From positions 1 to 64,000 of the forward strand of contig NZ_JAINWI010000018.1 in assembly GCF_021021435.1 (NCBI RefSeq): 64,000 nucleotides of DNA, written 5' to 3'. This document shows, piece by piece, positions 3,803 through 62,975 of the stretch (the first letter of the stretch is position 1; each line of letters starts with the position of its first letter). The notes beneath the pieces are model-generated. The model saw only the letters and a list, made by a program, of their open reading frames with translations, searched no databases and was not told where the DNA came from. This DNA comes from Seohaeicola saemankumensis (lineage in GTDB: Bacteria > Pseudomonadota > Alphaproteobacteria > Rhodobacterales > Rhodobacteraceae). Both the position numbers and the translations under genes were made by a program.

Positions 3803-3838
3803 TTGACTAAATCTAACAATTGTTAGAAATATTAGCAA
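3803..3838. promoter_or_regulatory. Divergent promoter region with perfect operator (site 2)
   Basis: TCTAACAATTGTTAGA at 3812-3827 is a perfect 16-bp palindrome. Leftward, TTGCTA (3838-3833) and TAGATT (3815-3810) are spaced by 17 bp across it. Rightward, TTGACT at 3803-3808 precedes a TAGAAA at 3824-3829 with a short 15-bp spacer. One bound repressor could close both promoters, controlling the CoA-transferase pair and the DUF35-thiolase operon. Confidence 0.82.
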
Positions 3839-7446: not shown

Positions 7447-7488
7447 TTGACGGGCAGGTTCTAAATCGGTAATCTAACAATTGTTAGA
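7447..7488 (+). promoter_or_regulatory. Promoter with perfect operator (site 3)
   Basis: TCTAACAATTGTTAGA at 7473-7488 is identical to site 2. TTGACG at 7447-7452 and TAATCT at 7470-7475 are spaced by 17 bp, which would put the start point inside the palindrome about 20 nt before ATG 7504. It divides the rightward run into two separately controllable units in the same orientation. Confidence 0.78.
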
Positions 7489-7503: not shown

Positions 7504-8223
7504 ATGGACAAGTCCGACGATGACCTGCCGGCTGAAGCCGAGCGTTATGTTATGCCATCGCACTTTGTGGAAAGTGATAGCTTGGAAGTGCAGGGCTTCG
7601 TGACATCGGCTTTGCGTGATCTTCCCGTGGACGCAACCAATCGAGACAAGGCAATCCGCCTGTTCGAAGCGGTTCGCGACGATATTCGCTATGATCCTTA
7701 TTGTTTCGCGCTGGATGCGGACTCTTACCGTGCCAGCCGGATAGCCGGAGCAGAAGCGGCATTTTGCGTTCCCAAGGCAATTCTGCTGGCGGCCTGCCTG
7801 CGTGCAGTGGGCATCCCTGCGGCTTTGGGGTTCGCGGATGTGCGCAACCACCTGAATACCCCCAAGCTGCAGGAGTTGATGGGGACCGATCTCTTTATCT
7901 TTCACGGCTATGTTCAGCTGTGGTTGGGGAATGAGGCCTATAAGGTCACCCCTGCATTCAATATGGAACTGTGTGAACGATTCGGGGTCAAACCCCTGGT
8001 GTTCGACGGCTATCACGACGCGCTCTTTCACGAGTTCGACGAACAGAACCACCGGCACATGGAATATGTGAATGATCGAGGTCTTTATTTCGACGCGCCG
8101 ATTGACGAGTTTCTAAAAGCCTTTAGGGAAACCTATCCGAAGCTGGAAGAGTTCAACCTGATCCGGATTTCAAAGGATGCAAACGGATACGATTCCGGTT
8201 TTGCAAAGGAGGATGCCACTTGA
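7504..8223 (+). CDS. Transglutaminase-like superfamily protein
   Basis: The 239-aa protein has a transglutaminase/protease-like core: DDIRYDP, then AFCVPKAILLAACLRAVGIPA with Cys88, and FHGYVQLWLGNEAYKV with His134. The third acidic residue of the triad is replaced (VTPAFN, Asn153). A C-terminal FDGYHDALFHEFD...HMEYV block is characteristic of a bacterial subgroup of unknown role. There is no signal peptide, so it should be cytoplasmic. It leads the operon, with GGGAGGAG at 7493-7500, and its stop overlaps the MaoC start. A thiol acyltransferase, amidase or hydrolase on a CoA-linked or conjugated substrate is possible but unproven. Confidence 0.75.
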   Translation: MDKSDDDLPAEAERYVMPSHFVESDSLEVQGFVTSALRDLPVDATNRDKAIRLFEAVRDDIRYDPYCFALDADSYRASRIAGAEAAFCVPKAILLAACLRAVGIPAALGFADVRNHLNTPKLQELMGTDLFIFHGYVQLWLGNEAYKVTPAFNMELCERFGVKPLVFDGYHDALFHEFDEQNHRHMEYVNDRGLYFDAPIDEFLKAFRETYPKLEEFNLIRISKDANGYDSGFAKEDAT

Positions 8224-26897: not shown

Positions 26898-27671
26898 CTA
26901 CCCCAGATATGCCTTGATCACTGCTGGGTTTTTCTGGATCTCTTCGGGCGTTCCTTCGGCGATCACTTTCCCAAAATCTAGCACCACGATCCGGTCGGCA
27001 ATATCCATCACCACACCCATGTCATGCTCAACCAGAACCACCGGAATTTTGCGCGCTTCGCGCACATCGAGAATGAAGCGCGCCAGGTCTTCCTTCTCTT
27101 CCGAGTTCATGCCAGCCATCGGCTCGTCCATCAGCAGTATCGACGGCTCCTGCGCCAGCGCTCGCCCCAGGTCGACCCGCTTGCGCAACCCATAGCCCAA
27201 TGTGCCGACAGGCCTGCTTCGGATTGCTGTAATTTCCAGGAAATCAATGATTTCCTCTGCCGCTTCGCGATGCTCGGACTCTTCGCGTATCACTGGGCCG
27301 AACTGGAAAAAGGCCTGAATCACATTCGATTTCATCAGCATGTGACGACCGATCATGATGTTTTCCACCACACTCTGCCCGGCAAAAAGATGGGTGCCCT
27401 GAAAGGTGCGCGCCAGACCCAGTCGAGCGATCTGGTCGACACGCAATCCTGTGACGTCTTTACCGGACAGTTCGACACGTCCTTTCTGAGGACGATAAAA
27501 CCCTGCTGTAACATTCAGAAGAGATGTTTTTCCGGCACCGTTCGGGCCTATGATTGCCAGCAATTCGTTGTCATTGACGGTGATGCTTACATCGTCGAGC
27601 GCAGTCACACCGCCGAATTTCAATGTCGCGCCATGAACTCCAAGCGGTGCGAATCCCGCAGCGGTGGTCAT
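26898..27671 (-). CDS. livG: Liv-type ABC transporter ATP-binding protein LivG
   Basis: The 257-aa ATPase has Walker A GPNGAGKTS at 42-50, the family Q-loop region, GYGLRKRVDLGRAL in place of the usual signature, and Walker B ILLMDEP. I chose ATG 27671: it overlaps the stop of a short leader frame (ATGA). The frame reaches back to 27785, but the added residues are not LivG-like and no ribosome site supports them. It is the first full gene of the importer operon. Confidence 0.82.
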   Translation of the reverse strand: MTTAAGFAPLGVHGATLKFGGVTALDDVSITVNDNELLAIIGPNGAGKTSLLNVTAGFYRPQKGRVELSGKDVTGLRVDQIARLGLARTFQGTHLFAGQSVVENIMIGRHMLMKSNVIQAFFQFGPVIREESEHREAAEEIIDFLEITAIRSRPVGTLGYGLRKRVDLGRALAQEPSILLMDEPMAGMNSEEKEDLARFILDVREARKIPVVLVEHDMGVVMDIADRIVVLDFGKVIAEGTPEEIQKNPAVIKAYLG

Positions 27672-27760
27672 ATCGTAATCCATGCTTGGTTTTGGCGTGC
27701 TGTGCGGTAAATCACCGCGGCACGAACTGTCGCCCAATTGACGTCTAGGCCTCCGCGCAT
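27668..27760 (-). CDS. Possible 30-codon leader ORF coupled to livG
   Basis: A short frame (MRGGLDVNWATV...) starts at ATG 27760 behind an excellent GGGGAGGAG and ends in TGA that overlaps the livG ATG. livG has no strong ribosome site of its own, so translation of the leader may drive it. The peptide resembles nothing I recognise. It may be only a translational-coupling device. Confidence 0.45.
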   Translation of the reverse strand: MRGGLDVNWATVRAAVIYRTARQNQAWITI

Positions 27761-27819
27761 CAACGCTCCTCCCCGCGATCTTCACAGAATTTTATTGGCT
27801 TTTTCCAGCCCCCTTCACA

Positions 27820-27848
27820 AAACTAACGTATGTTAGAAAACAAATCAA
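27820..27848 (-). promoter_or_regulatory. Promoter with operator (site 4) for the importer operon
   Basis: ACTAACGTATGTTAGA at 27822-27837 matches the palindrome with two deviations. On the minus strand TTGATT (27848-27843) and TAGTTT (27825-27820) are spaced by exactly 17 bp across it. The leader to the short ORF is about 55 nt. Confidence 0.75.
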
Positions 27849-38730: not shown

Positions 38731-39510
38731 TCAGGCCTTGAATTCAGGGGCGCGCCGGTTCTCGAACGCGTCGAGACCTTCGGCGACATCATCACTGGGC
38801 AACGCGCGCACGGCGGCATCACGTTCCAGCCGCATTTGCTGGTCGATTCCGAGATCCGCGCCTTCCCGTGCCAGCCGCTTCATCTCGGCGATACCGGGAC
38901 GCGAGCGGGTGGCGATTTTCTCGCAGTATTCCAGTGCGGACTTGTGCAGATCCGCGTCCGGCACGATGTAATTGACAAGCCCAGCCTCTTTGGCCTCTCC
39001 CGCCGCAAGCCAGCGGGCTGAGAACATCAGATCGAGTGCCCGGCGCTGCCCCATCAGCCGTGTCAGCCGCTGTGAGCCGCCCCAACCGGGAATCAGCCCG
39101 AATTGCGCATGCTGATCGCCAAACTGGGCGGTTTCGGCCGCGAAACATACATCGCATGCCAGCATCAGTTCGATCCCGCCGGCCAGACACAACCCCTGCA
39201 CAGCCACTACGACAGGAAGGGAGGAGGTTTCGAGCGCACGCAGGTTTTCCATGCCAAAGGCGATGAAATGATCCAGCGCGGCGGGATCGTTCAATTTACC
39301 TTTCACTTCCACCAGATCGGCGCCGGTACAAAAGTGCTTGCCCTGCGCCCGGATGAGGATCGTCCGGATTTCAGGGTTTGCCTCGAATTCCGATCGTGCG
39401 GCTGATATGCGCTCATGCACATCAAGTGACAGGCAATTGAATTTCTCGGGGCGGGCCAGCTCGATGATGCCGGTGTTGCCCTCGGTTGTGACGATGATGG
39501 GATCGTTCAT
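38731..39510 (-). CDS. Enoyl-CoA hydratase/isomerase family protein
   Basis: The 259-aa crotonase has FCTGADLVEV (oxyanion hole) and LAGGIELMLACD with the first catalytic Glu. The second Glu site reads DQHAQFGLIPGWGG, so only one glutamate is kept, as in the 17986 gene. Hydration, isomerisation or dehydration of a branched enoyl-CoA is possible. It overlaps the upstream ACAD by 4 nt. Confidence 0.84.
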   Translation of the reverse strand: MNDPIIVTTEGNTGIIELARPEKFNCLSLDVHERISAARSEFEANPEIRTILIRAQGKHFCTGADLVEVKGKLNDPAALDHFIAFGMENLRALETSSLPVVVAVQGLCLAGGIELMLACDVCFAAETAQFGDQHAQFGLIPGWGGSQRLTRLMGQRRALDLMFSARWLAAGEAKEAGLVNYIVPDADLHKSALEYCEKIATRSRPGIAEMKRLAREGADLGIDQQMRLERDAAVRALPSDDVAEGLDAFENRRAPEFKA

Positions 39511-40688
39511 TTCTGAGCACCCGTCGCCTTCTTGTCATACTGCAGCGCCATCCGTCCGACCTTCTCGCGAGCAATCACAAGCTTCTGGATTTGCGCTGTA
39601 CCGTCACCGATCTGCAGGCCGAGCACATCGTTGTAGCGCTGGTGGTGAGGCAGGTCGGTCGTATAGCCGTAATGCCCGTGCAGGATCAGGCACTGGTGCA
39701 GGATCTCGCAGGCGGTTTTGGGCAGATACCATTTGCACATGGCCGCTTCGGAGGTATGCGGCAGGCCACGGTCGCGCAGGTCCAGCGTGTAATAGCAAAG
39801 CTGGCGCATCATGGTCAGCTGGGTTTCGGCCTCGGCCAGCGGAAAGCTGACGCCCTGGTATTGCACGATGGGGGCCCCGAAGGCCTCGCGTTCCCGAACG
39901 TAGGCCCAGGTTTCATCCACCGACGCTTGCGCGGCCCCCAGGCATTCCAGCCCGATCAGCGCGCGGGAATAGTCGAAACCCGCCATGATCGTGCCAAAGG
40001 CACGGTCCTGTTCCGCCATCATGTTTTCGGCTGGCACGAATACATCGTCAAAGAACACCGACCCGCGCCCGACAGGTTTTGTGCCGATGTCTTCAAAATG
40101 AGTTCGCTTGATGCCTTCCTGGTTAAGATCGACAAAAAAGGCGCTAACCCCGCGCGAGCCGCCGCTAGGGTCGCCCGTGCGCGCGAAAACCACGGCAGCA
40201 TCGGCCTGGGACGCAAAGCTCATCGAGGTTTTCTCGCCGTTCAGCCGCCATCCGTTCCCAGATTTCTCCGCCTTGAGAATCAGATTGGCCGCATCTGACC
40301 CGCCGCGCGGCTCGGTCAGACCCAGACCAATGACAGCTTCACCCGAAACAACTTTGGGAACCCATTCCGATGCGATCTCTTTGGACGCGTGCTTGGCCAC
40401 CATGCCGCCCATGAGAGAGCCCAGAAGCTGCACGTAACTTGCGTTGAAATCGGCATAGGCGATCTCTTCGACGATCAGCCCCGACGTGACAGAGCTTTCG
40501 CCCAGCCCACCGAATTCTTCAGGCAGATCGGCCCCGATCAGGCCCAGTGCGCCCATCTCTTTGATCAGGGCGCGATCAAAGGTGTGGCCGCTTGCGCGCT
40601 CTTGATAAGTGGGCGCAAGTTTCTCAGTTGCAAAGCGCTTCGCGGTTTCGCGAAACGCCTTTTGATCTTCTGTAGGCTGGAATTGCAT
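39507..40688 (-). CDS. Acyl-CoA dehydrogenase, AliB-like, without canonical Glu
   Basis: The 393-aa ACAD has LPEEFGGLGES, LTEPRGGSDAANL, FGAPIVQYQGVSFPLAE and IGDGTAQIQKLVIARE. The helix-G position is Ser (FDYSRALIG) and the YEGT position is Asp (GDGT), so no canonical Glu is present. Cyclohexanecarboxyl-CoA dehydrogenases of the AliB/BadJ type are, as I recall, the group with such a C-terminus, which suggests a ring-bearing substrate. It is the first gene of the ten-gene operon; GGGAGGAG precedes ATG 40688. Confidence 0.82.
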   Translation of the reverse strand: MQFQPTEDQKAFRETAKRFATEKLAPTYQERASGHTFDRALIKEMGALGLIGADLPEEFGGLGESSVTSGLIVEEIAYADFNASYVQLLGSLMGGMVAKHASKEIASEWVPKVVSGEAVIGLGLTEPRGGSDAANLILKAEKSGNGWRLNGEKTSMSFASQADAAVVFARTGDPSGGSRGVSAFFVDLNQEGIKRTHFEDIGTKPVGRGSVFFDDVFVPAENMMAEQDRAFGTIMAGFDYSRALIGLECLGAAQASVDETWAYVREREAFGAPIVQYQGVSFPLAEAETQLTMMRQLCYYTLDLRDRGLPHTSEAAMCKWYLPKTACEILHQCLILHGHYGYTTDLPHHQRYNDVLGLQIGDGTAQIQKLVIAREKVGRMALQYDKKATGAQK

Positions 40689-40726: not shown

Positions 40727-40755
40727 AATCTAACAAATGTTAGAATATAGATCAA
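40727..40755. promoter_or_regulatory. Divergent promoter region with perfect operator (site 5)
   Basis: TCTAACAAATGTTAGA is at 40729-40744. Leftward, TTGATC (40755-40750) and TAGATT (40732-40727) are 17 bp apart across it and would drive the ten-gene operon. Rightward, TAGAAT at 40741-40746 is a good -10 with only a weak -35. The palindrome lies over both. Confidence 0.85.
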
Positions 40756-48474: not shown

Positions 48475-49236
48475 TTAACCGTGCATGGACAAGCCGCCTG
48501 AAACCGAAATCACCTGGCCGGTGATGAACCCAGCGTCATCCGACGAAAGAAAGCAAATGATGCCAGGGTAATCTGACGGTTGTGCCAGGCGCTTCATCGG
48601 AATTGCCCGCTTGAGACCTTCGGCGATCTTTTCACCGGCCTCGCCCTCAGCAACCTGAGCGAAAAGCGGAGTGTCGGTGGGGCCGGGCGCAACCGCGTTC
48701 AATTGAATACCTTTGCGTGCTAGTTCGCGCGCCACGGTCTTGGTGAACGAGATGATGCCGCCCTTGCAGGCCGAGTAGACGGCCTCGCCCGATGACCCGA
48801 CCCGACCGGCGTCAGACGCGATATTGACAACGCGGCCGCCCCCGTTTTTAACCATGCTTGGAAGCACCGCGTGATGCATATTGAGCGGTCCATAAAGATT
48901 GATGTCGATGACCTTTTTCCAAAGATCGGCATCGGTATCCAGGAACGGTTTGATCACGTCCCAGCCGGCGTTGTTCACCAGCACATCAATCGGCCCTCCG
49001 GCCTCGAACCCGGCCACTGCCGTGTCGACCTGAGCGCGGTCGGTGATATCTACCTTGAAGGCCTGCGCCTTTCCACCGGCCTCGGTGATCAGTCGAACAG
49101 TTTCTTCCGCCCCTTCCATGTTCAGATCGAAAACGGCCACCTCGGCACCATATTCGCCGAACCGTTCGCAAACTGCACGACCGATGCCGCTGCCACCGCC
49201 GGTCACGATGACCCGTTTTTCAGTCAACCCTCGCAT
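48475..49236 (-). CDS. SDR resembling 2-hydroxycyclohexanecarboxyl-CoA dehydrogenase
   Basis: The 253-aa SDR has TGGGSGIGR, VFDLNMEGAE, NNAGWDVIKPF, MHHAVLPSMV, NIASDAGRVGSSGEAVYSACKGG (active site Ser, Tyr, Lys) and FITGQVISVSGGLSMHG. These blocks closely follow BadH of Rhodopseudomonas palustris as I remember it, which oxidises 2-hydroxycyclohexane-1-carboxyl-CoA. A general 3-hydroxyacyl-CoA dehydrogenase is the alternative. I chose ATG 49236 with GGGAGAGGAG; the frame to 49290 has no such support. It is divergent from the double TetR gene. Confidence 0.8.
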   Translation of the reverse strand: MRGLTEKRVIVTGGGSGIGRAVCERFGEYGAEVAVFDLNMEGAEETVRLITEAGGKAQAFKVDITDRAQVDTAVAGFEAGGPIDVLVNNAGWDVIKPFLDTDADLWKKVIDINLYGPLNMHHAVLPSMVKNGGGRVVNIASDAGRVGSSGEAVYSACKGGIISFTKTVARELARKGIQLNAVAPGPTDTPLFAQVAEGEAGEKIAEGLKRAIPMKRLAQPSDYPGIICFLSSDDAGFITGQVISVSGGLSMHG

Positions 49237-49291
49237 GTGGAAGTTCTCCTCTCCCGTTACACTTTCTAAGGAGCTTGATTCGACGCTCACT

Positions 49292-49326
49292 TTGATGTAT
49301 TCTAACAGTTGTTAGATTTATTGCAA
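49292..49326. promoter_or_regulatory. Divergent promoter region with perfect operator (site 6) at the regulator gene
   Basis: TCTAACAGTTGTTAGA is at 49301-49316. Leftward, TTGCAA (49326-49321) and TAGAAT (49304-49299) are 16 bp apart. Rightward, TTGATG (49292-49297) and TAGATT (49313-49318) are 15 bp apart. The site would let the regulator control itself and the BadH-like gene. Confidence 0.82.
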
Positions 49327-49361: not shown

Positions 49362-50702
49362 ATGGCACGACAGATTGAAGATACCAGGATAGTGAATGAC
49401 GATCTGAGCAAATCAGAGAGGACCCGCAAAGCCATACTCGCTGCGGCCGCACGACTTTTTCGGTATGAAGGTTATCACGCAACGACGATGCGCGACATCG
49501 CGCAGGAAGCTGGCATTGAGGCCGGCAGCATTTATTACCACTTTCAATCCAAGGACCAGATTCTGAGCGAAGTTCTCGAACTTGGCGTGCGTCAACTTTA
49601 TGAGAAAGTCAGTGACATCGTTGGATCGGCAACGAGAAGTTCAGAGGATTTTCGCAAGACCTTCGAATTGCTGATTGAAACACACCTGACCTATCTGTTG
49701 ACCGACAGCGACTTCACGTCGGCCAATATTCGGAACTATCCGATGTTGTCAGACGAAACACGCGCCCCGCATCGCGAGTTGCGTGCTTCATATGCAGGGG
49801 CTTGGGGCAGATTCCTCAATGACGCCAAACGCGCCGGTCACCTTCGAAGTGACATATCCACGACAGTGATCCGGCAGTTTATCCTGAGCGCCATGAACTG
49901 GACCGTGGAATGGTATAATGTCGACAAGTATCCGGTGCGCATCCTCGCGGAACGGATGAGCAAGCTTATACTTGACGGAATGTGTTTCCGTGACAGGGCG
50001 GACACCAAAGGTTTGAAACTGTATCCCGCCGTTCCCGCCAAGACCGAGGATTCCAACGGCAAGGCCGCGAAGACCCGAGGAGAAATTCTTCAGGCCGCAG
50101 CGCGCGTTCTAAGGGACAATGGCTATAAGGCAACGACGCTGAGGAAGATCGCAGAAGAAGCGGACATGCAGGCGGGCAGCGTCTACTACCACTTCAACTC
50201 CAAGGAAACGATCGTTGACGAAGTTCTGAACGCCGGACTGGGCGACTTGCTAACTGGCGTCGAAGCGGCGGTTCAGAAATTCGATGCGCCGTACGATCAT
50301 CACGCCAGGATAGCGACTGCAATCTGGACGCACCTGGATTTCCTCTTCAAGGCAAGCGAATTCACTTCGGCGAACATCCGAAGCTATGGAATGCTTCCCA
50401 ATAATTTCAGGGAGAGGCACAGAGCTATTCGTCACGAATATGGAAAACTCTGGGACCGTATACTCCGCGAAGCTCAGGAAGACGGCGCGATAAGGTCGGA
50501 TATCAAGATCGTTCCCTTGCGCCAAGTCATGTTGGGCGCCTTGAACTGGACGGTAGAGTGGTTCAATCCGAACAAGGCTGGAGAGGAAGGGTATATATCT
50601 CTGCCTGAGTTCTCCGCGATGCTCATCGATCTTCTACTGGAAGGAATTTGCAAACGAGAGGCCATTCCATCGACGGGGCAAGACACGCCCGAAACCAATT
50701 GA
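49362..50702 (+). CDS. Tandem (double) TetR-family regulator, likely repressor of the island
   Basis: The 446-aa protein holds two complete TetR units. Unit 1 has its HTH at about 20-67 (recognition helix AGSIYYHF, 54-61) and unit 2 at about 237-284 (AGSVYYHF, 271-278). Their ligand domains share FTSANIR-Y-ML and NWTVEW blocks, showing an internal duplication. Usual TetR proteins are 190-220 aa and dimerise; this could bind a palindrome as a single chain. It is the only TetR gene in the window, and an operator copy overlaps its promoter. Inducer is probably an acyl-CoA. The start ATG 49362 has only a weak ribosome site. Confidence 0.88.
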   Translation: MARQIEDTRIVNDDLSKSERTRKAILAAAARLFRYEGYHATTMRDIAQEAGIEAGSIYYHFQSKDQILSEVLELGVRQLYEKVSDIVGSATRSSEDFRKTFELLIETHLTYLLTDSDFTSANIRNYPMLSDETRAPHRELRASYAGAWGRFLNDAKRAGHLRSDISTTVIRQFILSAMNWTVEWYNVDKYPVRILAERMSKLILDGMCFRDRADTKGLKLYPAVPAKTEDSNGKAAKTRGEILQAAARVLRDNGYKATTLRKIAEEADMQAGSVYYHFNSKETIVDEVLNAGLGDLLTGVEAAVQKFDAPYDHHARIATAIWTHLDFLFKASEFTSANIRSYGMLPNNFRERHRAIRHEYGKLWDRILREAQEDGAIRSDIKIVPLRQVMLGALNWTVEWFNPNKAGEEGYISLPEFSAMLIDLLLEGICKREAIPSTGQDTPETN

Positions 50703-55726: not shown

Positions 55727-55763
55727 TTGACCAAAATCAAACATATGTTAGAAAATAGATCAA
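55727..55763. promoter_or_regulatory. Divergent promoter region with operator (site 7)
   Basis: TCAAACATATGTTAGA at 55737-55752 has one deviation from the palindrome. Leftward, TTGATC (55763-55758) and TTGATT (55740-55735) are 17 bp apart. Rightward, TTGACC (55727-55732) and TAGAAA (55749-55754) are 16 bp apart. It controls the IVD-type operon and the crotonase-AtuA-carboxylase operon together. Confidence 0.82.
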
Positions 55764-56634: not shown

Positions 56635-58434
56635 ATGTCGGAACGAAAACTGCGCATCGGATGCGCATCGGGCTTCTGGGGCGATACGCCGGAAGCGATC
56701 GGTCAACTGGTCTCAAAGGGTGAGATCGACTATCTTGTTTTTGACTATCTGGCAGAGGTGACAATGTCGCTGATGGCGCGTGCCCGCGCCAAAACGCCCG
56801 AGTCGGGCTATGCGCCGGATTTCGTAAAGGCGCTTGTTCCGTGGCTGCCTGCAATCAAACGTCAGGGCATCAAGGTCGTTGCCAATGCCGGGGGCGTGAA
56901 CCCACGTGGATGCCGCGACGCGCTTGCCAAAGCCGCTGCCGAGGCCGGGCTTGATCTCTCGGTCGGTGTCGTGCTGGGCGATGACCTGTTGCCTAGGGCT
57001 GATGAAATTCGCAAAAGCGGTCAGACGGAAATGTTCTCGGGTGTCGAATTTCCAGACGATATCTGGAGCATGAATGCCTATCTGGGTGCCCGGCCCATCG
57101 CGACCGCGCTGGATGCCGGGGCCGACATCGTGATCACGGGGCGCTGCGCCGACAGCGCGGTGGCGCTTGGCCCCTTGATGCACGAATTCGGCTGGGGCGA
57201 TGACGACTGGGACAAGCTCAGTCAGGGATCGCTGGCCGGCCATCTGATCGAGTGCGGTCCCCAGGGAACGGGTGGTAATTTCACCGATTGGCGGGACGTG
57301 CCGGGCTGGGATGATATGGGAATGCCTATTGTCGAAGTGTCGGAAGACGGCAGTTTCGTCATGACCAAGACACCGGACACAGGCGGGCTGGTCGTACCCG
57401 GATCGGTTGGAGAGCAGATGCTCTATGAAATCGGCGATCCGCGCGCCTATCTGTTGCCTGACGTGATCTGCGACTGGTCCGGGGTCACGCTGGAACAGGT
57501 CGGGCGCGATCGAGTGCTGGTCAAGGGCGGCAGGGGTCTGGGGCGCACTAACAGCTACAAGGTGTCGGCCACCCATGCTGATGGCTGGCGCGCGGTCTCT
57601 ACCCTGACACTGGCCGCGATTGATGCGCCTGCCAAGGCGGAACGCGTGGCCGAGGCGATTCTGACCCGCTGCCGCCGAATTTTCCGCGACCGCAACATGG
57701 GCGATTTCCGGCAGGTCAGCGTCGAGGTTTTGGGCGCCGAGTCCACTTATGGCGCAAATGCACGCGCCCAGACCCGCGAGGTGGTGCTCAAGATCGGCGC
57801 GGTCCACGATGATCGCGCTGCGCTGAACATCTTTGCCGGAGAAATCGCACCGATGGCGATTTCGACCGCGCAGGGCCTGACCGGGTTCTTCGCCGGACGG
57901 CCAAAGGTGCAACCGGTGGTCCGTCTGTTTTCCTTCTTGCATAGCAAGGCCGAGACCCCCGTCGCTGTCGAGGTCGACGGCAAGGATGTGCCCGTCACCG
58001 TGGCCACCACGACAGTCCAACTTGATCCGCCTGCCGCGCCGCCGGCAGATAGCCGCGCGCCCGGTTCGGACGCGGTCAAGGTGCGCCTCGTCGATCTGGC
58101 CTGGGGACGCTCAGGCGACAAGGGAGATATCGCCAATATCGGCATCCTCGCGCGCAAGCCGGACTACCTGCCATATATCCGCTCGGCTCTGAGCAAAGAG
58201 GTGGTGAAAGACTATTTTGCTCATGTTTGCGACGGCAAGGTCGAGCGGTTCGAACTGCCCGGAAGCCATTCGCTGAACTTCCTGTTGCATGAATCGCTTG
58301 GCGGGGGCGGCATTGCCTCTGTCCGCATCGACCCGCAAGGCAAAGGGTTTGCGCAGATGCTGCTTGATATCGAAATTCCCGTACCGGCCGATCTGGCCGC
58401 CCGCGATGGGCTGACGGCCTCGGACCGGAACTGA
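56635..58434 (+). CDS. atuA: AtuA-like acyclic-terpene-utilization protein (DUF1446)
   Basis: The 599-aa protein has an N-terminal DUF1446 domain (about 1-450; RIGCASGFWGDTPEA, VANAGGVNP, ITGRCADSA) and a C-terminal AtuA-like ferredoxin-fold domain (about 480-590) with LAWGRSGDKGDIANIG. AtuA is required for citronellol/geraniol growth in Pseudomonas, but its reaction is not settled. It is followed by biotin carboxylase genes as in related clusters. GGGGAGGAG precedes ATG 56635. The presence of this family is the best single hint at isoprenoid chemistry. Confidence 0.87.
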   Translation: MSERKLRIGCASGFWGDTPEAIGQLVSKGEIDYLVFDYLAEVTMSLMARARAKTPESGYAPDFVKALVPWLPAIKRQGIKVVANAGGVNPRGCRDALAKAAAEAGLDLSVGVVLGDDLLPRADEIRKSGQTEMFSGVEFPDDIWSMNAYLGARPIATALDAGADIVITGRCADSAVALGPLMHEFGWGDDDWDKLSQGSLAGHLIECGPQGTGGNFTDWRDVPGWDDMGMPIVEVSEDGSFVMTKTPDTGGLVVPGSVGEQMLYEIGDPRAYLLPDVICDWSGVTLEQVGRDRVLVKGGRGLGRTNSYKVSATHADGWRAVSTLTLAAIDAPAKAERVAEAILTRCRRIFRDRNMGDFRQVSVEVLGAESTYGANARAQTREVVLKIGAVHDDRAALNIFAGEIAPMAISTAQGLTGFFAGRPKVQPVVRLFSFLHSKAETPVAVEVDGKDVPVTVATTTVQLDPPAAPPADSRAPGSDAVKVRLVDLAWGRSGDKGDIANIGILARKPDYLPYIRSALSKEVVKDYFAHVCDGKVERFELPGSHSLNFLLHESLGGGGIASVRIDPQGKGFAQMLLDIEIPVPADLAARDGLTASDRN

Positions 58435-58446
58435 GAGGATACGACA

Positions 58447-59916
58447 ATGACCATTTCAAAACTCCTGGTTGCAAACCGCGGCGAAATCGCAGCGCGCGTG
58501 TTGCGAACCGCCAAGGCACGCGGCCTTGCAACGGCGGTCTTGCGCCATGAATCGGAGCAAGAGGGCCCCGCCCATCTGATTGCCGACGAGATTGTGACCA
58601 TCGAAGGGCCAACGCCTGTGGCCGCCTATCTCGATATTCCGCAGATTGTCGAGGCTGCAAAGAAAATCGGCGCCGACGCGGTGCATCCCGGCTACGGCTT
58701 TCTGTCAGAGAATGCGGCCTTCGTCGCGGCGCTGGAAAAGGCCGGTGTGACATTTGTCGGCCCGACCTCTGAGGTCATCGCCCTGATGGGCGACAAGGTC
58801 CGCGCCCGCGGCTTTGTCGAAGAACGCGGGTTTCCCGTCGCGCCCTCGGCGATCGAAGATGACGATCCGGCGAGTTTTGTCGAACGCGCCCGCACGGTGG
58901 GCTACCCTCTGCTGATCAAGCCCTCGGCTGGCGGCGGCGGCAAAGGTATGCGCATTGTGCGCGAAGACAGCACGTTGGAAACCGAAATCGAAACGGCACG
59001 TCGCGAAGGCATCCGTTATTTTGGCGATGGCCGGCTGTTTGTCGAACGCTACATCGAACGCCCGCGTCATATCGAGGTGCAGGTGATGGGCGACGGGCAG
59101 GGTAACGTGGTCCATTTCTGGGAACGCGAATGTTCGATCCAGCGCCGGTTCCAGAAGATTATCGAAGAAACGCCGTCACCGGCGCTGACCCCAGAACAGC
59201 GGGACGAGATCTGTGAAACCGCTGCAGGGATTGCCCGCGCCGTCAAATACCGCGGAGCAGGGACCGTCGAATTCATTTATGCGCAGGACGGGGCCTTTTA
59301 CTTCCTCGAAATGAACACCCGCCTTCAGGTCGAACATCCGGTGACCGAACTGGTGACTGGCTTCGATCTGGTCGCAGAGCAACTACGCATCGCGGCAGGT
59401 GAGGGGCTGAGCGCGACGCAGGCGAATATTCCCCAGACTGGCCATTCGATCGAACTACGCATCTGTGCCGAAGACGCGACGGCCGATTTTCGCCCCTCGA
59501 TCGGGGATATCCTGCTGCTGGATGAACCCTCCGGCCCCGGCGTGCGCGTGGACAGCGGCATTCTGGACGGCGGCAAGGTGACCACCGATTTTGACCCGAT
59601 GCTGTCTAAGCTGATCGTGCATGGCCGCGACCGCGTAGAGGCCATCGCCCGTGCGCGGCAAGCGGTGCAAAACTATGTGGTTCTCGGGGTGACGACCAAC
59701 ACCGGATACCTAGATGCAATCCTTGCACATCCAGATTTTGCCGCAGGTAACGTTTCAACCGGGTTCCTTGCTGAACAATCCGAAACGCTGACCGCTCCGG
59801 CTGAGGACATCTCTGAGCTACTGATGGCGGCAGCGGCCTTATCAGATGAACGATTGGTGGGCGACGTAATGCAGATACCGGAAATGTACCGCAAGATGGG
59901 CGGGTGGAGAAACTGA
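58447..59916 (+). CDS. Acyl-CoA carboxylase, separate biotin carboxylase subunit
   Basis: The 489-aa protein is a biotin carboxylase without a biotinyl domain: LLVANRGEIAARVLRTA, ATP-grasp loop SAGGGGKGMRIV, LEMNTRLQVEHPVTE. The biotin carrier is encoded by the next gene, so this carboxylase has three subunits, unlike the fused enzyme at 32522. It carboxylates biotin with ATP and bicarbonate. Its TGA overlaps the carrier ATG. Confidence 0.89.
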   Translation: MTISKLLVANRGEIAARVLRTAKARGLATAVLRHESEQEGPAHLIADEIVTIEGPTPVAAYLDIPQIVEAAKKIGADAVHPGYGFLSENAAFVAALEKAGVTFVGPTSEVIALMGDKVRARGFVEERGFPVAPSAIEDDDPASFVERARTVGYPLLIKPSAGGGGKGMRIVREDSTLETEIETARREGIRYFGDGRLFVERYIERPRHIEVQVMGDGQGNVVHFWERECSIQRRFQKIIEETPSPALTPEQRDEICETAAGIARAVKYRGAGTVEFIYAQDGAFYFLEMNTRLQVEHPVTELVTGFDLVAEQLRIAAGEGLSATQANIPQTGHSIELRICAEDATADFRPSIGDILLLDEPSGPGVRVDSGILDGGKVTTDFDPMLSKLIVHGRDRVEAIARARQAVQNYVVLGVTTNTGYLDAILAHPDFAAGNVSTGFLAEQSETLTAPAEDISELLMAAAALSDERLVGDVMQIPEMYRKMGGWRN

Positions 59917-60419
59917 TGCAACGGATTTTTCAGATCGACGGAGAAGAGACCGAATGCTGGCTGGGCCATGATGGCAGCCGCTTCGTATTGAATACACCCG
60001 ATGGTTCTGTTGCCTGCGAATTGAACCCGACGGCTCTGCCGGGCGGTTATACGTTGCGTGCCAAGGGTGTTGTGCGCGAACTGCGATTGGCGGTGGGACC
60101 GGATGCAACTTTTGTGCACATGAACGGCCGGACCCACGAAATCCGACGCATTGACCCCGACGAACGTCTGGCCGGACGCGACAAGGGCGCAAGCGATGAT
60201 CGGTTGGTCGCGCCTATGCCCGGCGTCGTGGTGTCGGTCGCGGTCAAACCCGGCGATACAGTTGCAGAAGGCCAGCCGCTTTTGGTTATCGAAAGCATGA
60301 AGCTTGAAACCACACTGACGGCGCCACGTGACGGGGTCGTTGCTGAAATGCCATTCGCCGAAGGCGACAGTTTCAGGCTGAAAGACATCCTGGCCCAATT
60401 GGCCCCGGAGGAGGAGTGA
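59916..60419 (+). CDS. Biotin carboxyl carrier protein subunit
   Basis: The 167-aa protein has an N-terminal region of about 90 residues resembling the BT domain that links alpha and beta subunits, then a biotinyl domain with VIESMKLE and the biotin-bearing Lys129. I chose ATG 59916, which overlaps the biotin carboxylase stop (TGATG) and has GGAG 6 nt upstream; the in-frame GTG 59904 is inside that ribosome site. It shuttles carboxylate between the flanking subunits. Confidence 0.88.
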   Translation: MQRIFQIDGEETECWLGHDGSRFVLNTPDGSVACELNPTALPGGYTLRAKGVVRELRLAVGPDATFVHMNGRTHEIRRIDPDERLAGRDKGASDDRLVAPMPGVVVSVAVKPGDTVAEGQPLLVIESMKLETTLTAPRDGVVAEMPFAEGDSFRLKDILAQLAPEEE

Positions 60420-60421
60420 GA

Positions 60422-62029
60422 ATGCGCCGGATTGAAAGTCTGATCGACACCAACGCCGCCGACTACAAGGCAAACTATGCCGCCATGTCCGAGCGACTGA
60501 AAGAGTTTCACGCCCGCCAGCAAGCGGCGCGTTTCGAACGCCCGCAACGCGATATTGATCGCCTTGCCCGCCAAAACAAACTGGGCGTGCGCGAGCGGTT
60601 GAAACTACTACTGGACCCCGGCACGCCCTTTTTGGAGTTTTCCACACTTGCCGCTTGTCGCGAATACGACGGCACCGTGCCTGGCGCCGCTGTGGTGACG
60701 GGCATCGGTATTGTGCAGGGCCGCGAGGTCGCCATCCACGCCAATGACGCGAGCGTCAAGGGCGGGGCTTGGTATCCACATACCGTCAAAAAGGTCGTGC
60801 GGCTTTTGGATGTGGCGCTGGAAAATCGCTTGCCGGTTGTCCATATCTGCGACAGCGCTGGCGGCTTTCTGCCATTGCAGCATGGCGTCTTTCCCGACCG
60901 CTATCTGGGCGGACGAGTGTTCCGCAACCAGGTCAAGCTGAGCCAAGCCAACATTCCGCAAATCGCGGTGGTCGGCGGGCATTGCACCGCAGGCGGTGCC
61001 TATGTACCTACGCTGAGCGATTACAACATCATCATCGAAGGCACTGGGGCGATTTTCCTTGGCGGTCCCCCGCTGGTCAAGGCGGCCACCGGCGAAGAGG
61101 TCGGTGTTCAGGAACTTGGTGGGGCGGTTATGCATACCTCGGTTTCGGGAACCGGCGACTACCGAGCCGCCACTGAACAGCACGCCTTTTCACTGGCGCG
61201 CGAGATTGTCAGCCAATGGAAGCGCACCCCGAAAACGATCATCGAAACCGCCGCTTTTGAAGAGCCATACTACGACCCCAAGGAGCTTTATGGGATCATC
61301 CCCAAGGACCGGAAAACCCAGTTTGATATGCGCGAGGTTCTGGCGCGGATCGTCGATGGCTCGCGCTTTCACGAATACCAGCCCGACTATGGCACCACGA
61401 TGGTTTGCGGCTTTGCTCATATCTGGGGTTACAAGGTTGGCATCCTTGCCAACAACGGGGTGTTGTTCAACGACAGCTCGCTGAAGGCGGCGCATTTCAT
61501 GCAGCTTTGCAATCAGAACCGCACACCTCTGGTCTTCTTTCAGAACATCACTGGCTATATGGTGGGCCGCGAATACGAAGAACGCGGCATCGCCAAGGAC
61601 GGTGCCAAGATGCTGATGGCGCAGGGCGGTTCGGTCGTACCGAAGTTTACCGTGATCGCCAATGCCTCGTACGGGGCAGGCAATTACGGCATGTGCGGGC
61701 GGGCCTGGGATGCGCGCACGCTGTTTATGTGGCCGCAAGCCGAGATCGGCGTGATGGGGGCGGATCAGGCCGCTAATACCATGGCGGACGTCAAGATCCG
61801 GCAGCTTCAGCGTGAAGGCAAAGAGCTGACAGAAGAAGAAATCGCCGCAATCCGTGAACCGGTGCTGGAAAAATACAAGCGCGATGTCGAAGCCTATACC
61901 TCCACCTCGGAACTGTGGGATGATGGCATCCTCGATCCGGCGGACACACGCAACGCGCTTGGCATGTCGATTTCCGCCTCGCTCAATGCACCGATCGAGG
62001 AACCACACTACGGGATCTTCCGGCTGTAA
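60422..62029 (+). CDS. atuC: Geranyl-CoA-carboxylase-like carboxyltransferase subunit
   Basis: The 535-aa carboxyltransferase has GGAYVPTLSDYNII, SYGAGNYGMCGRAWDARTLFMWPQAEIGVMG and DPADTR near the end. Overall it resembles AtuC, the beta subunit of geranyl-CoA carboxylase, although 3-methylcrotonyl-CoA carboxylase is hard to exclude by eye. It would carboxylate the gamma-methyl of a cis-geranyl-type enoyl-CoA. ATG 60422 follows GGAGGAGGAG; GTG 60416 is within it. The AtuA neighbour supports the assignment. Confidence 0.8.
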   Translation: MRRIESLIDTNAADYKANYAAMSERLKEFHARQQAARFERPQRDIDRLARQNKLGVRERLKLLLDPGTPFLEFSTLAACREYDGTVPGAAVVTGIGIVQGREVAIHANDASVKGGAWYPHTVKKVVRLLDVALENRLPVVHICDSAGGFLPLQHGVFPDRYLGGRVFRNQVKLSQANIPQIAVVGGHCTAGGAYVPTLSDYNIIIEGTGAIFLGGPPLVKAATGEEVGVQELGGAVMHTSVSGTGDYRAATEQHAFSLAREIVSQWKRTPKTIIETAAFEEPYYDPKELYGIIPKDRKTQFDMREVLARIVDGSRFHEYQPDYGTTMVCGFAHIWGYKVGILANNGVLFNDSSLKAAHFMQLCNQNRTPLVFFQNITGYMVGREYEERGIAKDGAKMLMAQGGSVVPKFTVIANASYGAGNYGMCGRAWDARTLFMWPQAEIGVMGADQAANTMADVKIRQLQREGKELTEEEIAAIREPVLEKYKRDVEAYTSTSELWDDGILDPADTRNALGMSISASLNAPIEEPHYGIFRL

Positions 62030-62930: not shown

Positions 62931-62975
62931 TTGACAGTTGATGGGCTCAGGAGTTTAATTCTAACAAATGGTAGA
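62931..62975 (+). promoter_or_regulatory. Promoter with operator (site 9) for the SCP-x thiolase gene
   Basis: A consensus -35 TTGACA (62931-62936) and TTTAAT (62954-62959) are spaced by 17 bp. TCTAACAAATGGTAGA (62960-62975; one deviation) follows immediately and would cover the start point. Its centre is 82 bp from that of site 8. Confidence 0.8.

Follow-up and report, generated by a model that had tools for sequence, protein, structure and literature searches.

Ordinary repressors of the TetR family are dimers of two chains. The double-TetR architecture, in which two units are joined in one polypeptide, is not new, as one such protein has already been solved: Mce3R of Mycobacterium tuberculosis (PDB 9b7y), which like the protein described here has two TetR units in one chain of 400–450 aa; its regulon concerns lipid metabolism and it controls its own gene, as is also proposed for the present protein. 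The paper on Mce3R (PMC11667970) places it in an infrequent double-TFR subfamily, for which 204 members predicted in Actinomycetes are cited, and presents it as the first double TetR to be solved. According to the same paper its sites are 25 bp long and non-palindromic, and each chain has one ligand-binding domain, with a cavity that could have room for two ligands or for one large inducer. In the C2 dimer that was observed the protomers sit on separate duplexes, and the authors suggest looping. The homodimer of double chains, formed through helix 15, is a trait of the Mce3R type. Another paper (PMC3511530) names Mce3R together with AtuR among the TetR-like repressors of divergent neighbours. 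Two linked TetR units are also described, in PMC1797012, for the engineered single-chain Tet regulator sc-rtTA; that fusion is man-made whereas the present one is natural. The single-unit structures I2/PfiT (4mxm), PfmR (3vpr), KstR2 (4w97) and AibR (5k7z; solved with isovaleryl-CoA according to the entry title) are among the nearest solved sequences or folds; they have the fold of each unit of the present protein but one unit per chain instead of two. EdcR was considered as a further lead and dropped, since PMC8700777 describes a TetR with one HTH domain and a different operator. Among the papers listed for the open-licence literature, in part the best 20 of 47, 903 and 714, none is about this alphaproteobacterial double TetR family.

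The double TetR considered here is encoded in a window of 64,000 nucleotides, the whole stretch of DNA analysed (G000:C10:1-64000, from a genome of 4.09 Mb in 75 contigs). Its parts are as follows.

49362–50702, plus strand: double TetR repressor gene (P0001), 446 aa, from the list of open reading frames, Pfam and orthologues
49410–49985, plus strand: first TetR unit, HTH at about residues 20–66, recognition helix EAGSIYYHF, PF00440 at 49434–49574; the span aligned by the single TetR P0002
49986–50063, plus strand: linker between the TetR units
50064–50600, plus strand: second TetR unit, HTH at about residues 237–283, recognition helix QAGSVYYHF, PF00440 at 50085–50225

The first-pass annotation had proposed two full TetR units in one 446-aa chain, with the recognition helices AGSIYYHF and AGSVYYHF, and both statements hold. 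Pfam finds two TetR_N stretches (E 3.9e-37 for the whole protein, passing the cut-off) and two TetR_C_24 stretches (E 2.3e-30), and in the search of the own genome both PF00440 matches lie within one open frame of 468 codons. The protein has the N-terminal HTH (PF00440) and the helical ligand and dimerisation domain after it which are expected of the TetR family, and it has the two complete TFR units in one polypeptide which mark the Mce3R type; the third TetR family trait, a palindromic operator near the own gene, is suggested by the sequence upstream. The score of 158.8 bits with the ScbR-type model NF041196 (cut-off 150) comes from two stretches, P0002 reaching 74.8 bits, and is more likely an annotation trap than a sign of membership. 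The halves are identical at 42.9% of 205 aligned residues, with 59.6% in the HTH and 39.2% in the ligand domain. The motifs FTSANIR and NWTVEW had been pointed out as shared, and they do occur in each half, but the single relative P0002 has SSANVR and NATLEW at the corresponding places, so that such motifs are no mark of doubles. Among 81 aligned proteins nearly all have the recognition helix AGS[IVL]YYHF in both halves, the deviations being YYYF in two of the 81 N halves and EPGS in one C half. The linker stretch between residues 208 and 234 measures 26–28 residues in all 81, with a poorly conserved sequence.

An AlphaFold2 model of the chain, built with 31 family sequences, has a pLDDT of 84.5 and a pTM of 0.82, the latter not being proof of the arrangement of the units. 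The best Foldseek match to the model is Mce3R (TM 0.61/0.69, 425 columns), and VIA-align superposes it on 9b7y_A with Z 28.0 and rmsd 4.5 over 368 residues (model residues 16–431, both units), at 16% identity in the structural alignment; the next structural matches are single TetRs with Z up to 18.6. The monomer prediction which had been suggested as a check thus gave a chain predicted to fold like Mce3R across both units, and the two units are predicted to pack as a single-chain, omega-shaped pseudo-dimer. At the DNA the two proteins appear to differ. The operator of Mce3R is asymmetric, whereas here the site upstream of the gene reads as symmetric instead of non-palindromic, the recognition helices too are symmetric, and both halves derive from a single subfamily. 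The present family would thus be a symmetric counterpart to Mce3R.

The putative operator is a 16-bp palindrome, TCTAACANNTGTTAGA. The window contains nine matches with at most three mismatches where 0.58 are expected, and these palindromes are therefore not due to chance. The first-pass annotation had placed one of them in the promoter of the double gene, which was confirmed. The sites and the divergent gene are listed here.

212–227: weak putative operator, 2 mismatches, upstream of an acyl-CoA dehydrogenase gene (266)
3812–3827: putative operator, exact, where a CoA-transferase III gene (minus strand) begins; inside its longest frame, upstream given a later in-frame start
7473–7488: putative operator, exact, upstream of a gene without Pfam family that starts at 7504
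27822–27837: weak putative operator, 2 mismatches, upstream of the ABC transporter gene 26898–27785 (minus strand)
40729–40744: putative operator, exact, between the minus-strand gene 39507–40688 and an old-yellow-enzyme-type reductase gene (plus strand)
48475–49290, minus strand: divergent SDR gene, BadH-like (2-hydroxycyclohexanecarboxyl-CoA dehydrogenase), 368 bits and below the cut-off of 431
49301–49316: putative operator TCTAACAGTTGTTAGA, exact, in the gap that separates the double TetR gene from the divergent SDR gene; a promoter-like −10 of the minus strand overlaps it
55737–55752: putative operator, 1 mismatch, between an acyl-CoA dehydrogenase gene (minus strand, given a later in-frame start) and a plus-strand gene
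62878: weak putative operator, 3 mismatches
62960–62975: putative operator, 1 mismatch, upstream of a thiolase gene (63027)

All of these sites lie near gene starts. Those at 3812, 40729 and 55737 are inside longest frames, that of the reductase beginning at 40737 within the operator, and can be read as upstream of their genes only if a later in-frame start is assumed. The divergent SDR gene is a likely target of control; the promoter-like −10 at the 49301 site is a weak signal, with one such site against 0.3 in shuffles. The whole own genome has seven sites with at most one mismatch, six of them on the contig of the cluster. An exact TCTAACATATGTTAGA is found off that contig, at L148:2269-2284 (G000:C16:14768-14783).

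Around the sites are genes for acyl-CoA dehydrogenases, enoyl-CoA hydratases, CoA ligases, CoA transferases, thiolases and thioesterases, as well as carboxylases with an AtuA protein, the old-yellow-enzyme-type reductase and the ABC transporter gene. Part of this annotation comes from a counterpart of the cluster on a Roseibium plasmid, where the gene corresponding to 39507–40688 (minus strand) is annotated as acyl-CoA dehydrogenase. The plus-strand gene beside the 55737 site has a counterpart annotated as enoyl-CoA hydratase, and the AtuA and carboxylase genes come next. At 56635–62029 the gene for an AtuA-family protein is followed by genes for a biotin carboxylase, a biotin carrier and a carboxyltransferase, an atu-like module in a catabolic cluster of the roseobacter type. 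AtuA is named in Pfam for acyclic terpene utilisation, and clusters of the atu type are controlled by AtuR in Pseudomonas. The double TetR probably controls a large cluster which degrades unusual fatty-acid-like compounds. The enzymes of the cluster, together with near structural matches such as AibR and FadR which according to their titles contain CoA esters, suggest a CoA thioester as the putative inducer. A tRNA scan of the window found no tRNA.

Conservation of the site was examined in 80 loci with a double gene, the best of 226 candidates. In 78 of the 80 TCTAACANNTGTTAGA is present, with at most two mismatches, 20–130 bp upstream of the gene; it is absent before the Acidocella gene (L134), and one locus (L123) is cut off by the end of the contig. 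The 78 sites amount to 48 distinct 40-mers and 23 distinct 16-mers, the loci are thus related, and the fraction 78/80 overstates their independence. Over the 1.52 Mb of these same best 80 loci there are 171 sites with at most one mismatch and none for the reversed pattern. Deviations are balanced between the half-sites of the 23 distinct 16-mers (left 9, right 11), and no asymmetry of the operator is apparent. Within the family the operator may have diverged, since a double of 41% identity (L147, G736:C5:234189-235448) has no TCTAACA palindrome at up to three mismatches in its 4.3-kb locus.

It had also been suggested to look for co-occurrence of the architecture with TCTAACA sites, and this was found. 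The 12 genomes with the double, of which G003 has only a piece, have 89 sites (7, 1, 8, 8, 8, 8, 9, 7, 11, 9, 6 and 7, thus 1–11 each) against 4 for the reversed control. In 34 relatives without the double there are five sites in total, with none in 29 of them, and 19 for the reversed pattern; these 34 were searched out of 59 such genomes, the 25 left out being mostly incomplete or small. In G234 all eight sites are inside 137 kb around the double gene on a contig of 3.1 Mb. Sites, regulator and enzyme cluster travel together, and therefore co-occurrence alone does not name the reader.

The distribution of the double was followed in several sets of genomes. Among 394 genomes of the family 11 match at E <= 1e-38, ten of them (the own genome included) with at least 75% identity and one (G091) with 54%; G276 has an additional second copy of 54% identity. 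The relatives search, with 61 genomes, found the double only in the own genome and in G003, where a C-terminal piece of 135 residues (81% identity) lies at a contig end, and two further matches were single TetRs. A draw of 385 genomes from the whole class gave three with a match at E <= 1e-80, namely the own genome, G660 (89%) and G736 (copies of 47% and 41%). The best 80 of 226 candidates in the scan of named genomes are mostly from Rhodobacterales (roseobacters), with some from Rhizobiales including Bradyrhizobium, one from Acidocella and one from Marinobacter, and many of these 80 are metagenome-assembled. PLSDB has 42 plasmid records with the double. Three are from Rhodococcus and 39 from Alphaproteobacteria, with Pseudosulfitobacter accounting for 21 records, many of them alike; 13 of the 42 are typed as conjugative, 5 as mobilizable and 24 as non-mobilizable. 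From genomes and plasmids together the gene is therefore patchy and partly plasmid-borne. Some loci with doubles of about 55% identity have a separate single TetR downstream (L135:11432-12091, L144:2966-3613). Long match spans in L135–L138 had looked like a triple TetR; the open frames there encode a double (442 codons), and the 220 codons downstream belong to a frame of their own, with a TetR match in L135.

One-unit relatives with the same type of operator bear on how the site may be read. The genome G454 has a single TetR whose identity to the halves of the double is 48.5% and 50.8%. It is divergent to the orthologous SDR gene (76% identity), and its neighbours include the orthologous counterpart of gene 39507–40688 (83%) and two hydratase-like genes (87% and 62%). 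Upstream of this single is TCTAACGTGTGTTAGA, which differs from the consensus of the double in one base, and no more than 4 kb away are two sites that match the wider pattern TCTAACRNNYGTTAGA but for one mismatch; the whole G454 genome has four sites of the wider pattern against none of the reversed one. In the other genomes the degenerate pattern and its reverse gave 0/3 (G718), 1/8 (G682), 2/3 (G590), 6/4 (G676), 9/7 (G660), 2/3 (G736), 0/3 (G523) and 0/1 (G494); as it is not above the reversed control in several of the nine, the analysis relies only on G454 and on sites immediately before TetR genes. Among 18 loci found with the single P0003, this SDR gene is divergent beside the singles of G043, G718 and G454 and beside the double of G660. 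The sites TCTAATGGTAGTTAGA (G043) and TCTAATACTAGTTCGA (G718) are more deviant, and the singles of L167 and L168 have TCTAACGTTTGTTAGA and TCTAACGTCTGTTAGA upstream.

One-unit members with this operator type are expected to bind as homodimers, and as the double has the operator type in common with them it would be a covalent dimer on the same type of site; most likely it works like an ordinary homodimer whose two chains have been joined covalently. Of the arguments for this, the shared operator type is the best. We consider it probable that the protein is a natural single-chain TetR pseudo-dimer on TCTAACANNTGTTAGA which represses itself and the cluster and is released by a metabolite of the pathway. 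Two units of one subfamily, held by a linker of near-constant length, would form one pseudo-dimer whose two like recognition helices read the two halves of the 16-bp palindrome, an operator of the type used by one-unit members. When bound it would cover promoter elements and so repress its own gene, the divergent SDR gene and further operons of the CoA-thioester catabolic cluster, until a pathway metabolite, probably a CoA thioester, releases it. For this reading the two units, the conserved site before the gene, the co-occurrence with sites and the symmetry of the site are taken from the sequence, the fold is predicted, and binding, repression and ligand follow by inference.

The first-pass annotation had let the two HTHs of one chain read the palindrome, partly because this was the only TetR gene. 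That is correct within the window, but the same contig has more TetR matches (C10:65318, 85447 and 86200), so that this argument fails just beyond it, whereas the reading itself is supported by sequence and predicted fold.

C10:65249–65878 (to 65881 in L001:1250–1882): single TetR P0002, 1.25 kb beyond the window, with the TetR match at C10:65318

P0002 adjoins a carboxylase operon. The cluster thus has two related regulators, P0002 and the double, whose operators differ slightly. That P0002 is the true reader of the palindromes, the double having another role, we hold to be improbable. Its recognition helix KAGSIYYHF is similar to those of the double, its promoter contains CCTAACAAGTGTTAGT, a palindrome with two mismatches at C10:65209 just upstream of the start at about 65249, and it or a relative of at least 72% identity is present in 9 of the 12 double genomes. 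Against this, G384 has nine sites with a best P0002 match of 53%, and G091 has seven sites although its best single is 38% identical to P0002 (matches of 42% are halves of its own double), while G001, G002 and G006 have a P0002 relative of 49–50%, no double and no site at up to one mismatch. G003 has a relative of 48% and one site. In all, P0002 matches were found in 18 of 46 genomes searched, some of them halves of doubles. Moreover, P0002-type genes keep a sister operator of their own, CCTAAC-N4-GTTAG, in eight of nine close loci. These counts and the operator variant make P0002 unlikely as reader of all sites, and since the sites follow the double and the P0002-type operator differs, the double is the likelier reader; cross-binding of P0002 to some of its sites is possible.

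Two other arrangements concern the double itself. A homodimer of doubles could grip two operators with four HTHs and so bring distant promoters of the cluster together in a DNA loop, as the C2 dimer of Mce3R with one protomer per duplex suggests (PMC11667970) and as the several separate sites, eight within 137 kb in G234, would allow. We find this rather unlikely: judged by eye, which makes this a weak argument, most promoters have one site, a few pairs being 78–82 bp apart, and such a dimer is compatible with the single-chain model but unneeded for reading one operator. Alternatively only one unit might bind DNA, the second being a sensor relic, with a conventional homodimer formed through one pair of units. 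The ligand domains have indeed diverged more (39% identical) than the HTHs (60%), but the HTHs are equally conserved in the two units of the aligned doubles (mean top-residue frequency 0.852 and 0.856), so that neither has the look of a relic, and the superposition of the predicted fold on Mce3R takes in both units; this arrangement is very improbable.

Under the single-chain reading, fusing a homodimer could bring assembly independent of concentration, free divergence of the ligand halves and insulation from paralogues such as P0002. It is tempting, though speculative and on balance doubtful, to go on from the first-pass idea that two non-identical pockets could sense two acyl-CoAs and to think that the fusion made an obligate heterodimer which reads DNA symmetrically while its diverged ligand halves integrate two CoA thioesters, and that this arose more than once in the subfamily. 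What was gained by fusion is directly testable because nature supplies a control, a relative with one unit that occupies the corresponding locus and has an almost identical operator. The sites also suggest a regulon map for a large CoA-thioester catabolic cluster on chromosomes and plasmids of marine roseobacters.

The origin of the fusion was approached with trees. One of 58 rows held 20 of the 81 aligned doubles and 18 of 25 distinct singles, near-copies and short ones being removed; one of 43 rows omitted three long-branched singles and nine near-duplicate doubles and added three doubles (Rhodococcus, L146 and L147). In both, the N halves and the C halves are sister clades with no singles between. 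In a later tree with more singles, from which three further singles were removed and 3 of 18 new loci left out (already present, or a double), S_L171 joins the N halves (94/77) and S_L158 the C halves (89/79), neither strongly. The alphaproteobacterial double may have come either from an in-place tandem duplication or from fusion of two close paralogues.

The double on a Rhodococcus plasmid (pRB98, WP_230990348.1, L152) has 440 aa in two units, with 30% identity over 93% of the query, and like the present one adjoins acyl-CoA dehydrogenase and CoA-transferase genes. Its halves group together in the tree (100/97), in which the halves of Mce3R are not among the rows. Trees constrained to place its N half among the alphaproteobacterial N halves are rejected (p-AU 2.9e-5), as are those that place its C half among the C halves (2.4e-5), in tests named after the first tree was seen. 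Since its own halves group together and these constraints are rejected, it is probably a separate duplication, although the same picture could result from long branches or from gene conversion between halves. No TCTAACA palindrome was found upstream of the Rhodococcus gene. Another palindrome, CCTAATCCAGATTAGG, at L152:7686-7705 about 280 bp upstream, may be its operator, and a further one lies nearer to the gene at L152:7815-7834.
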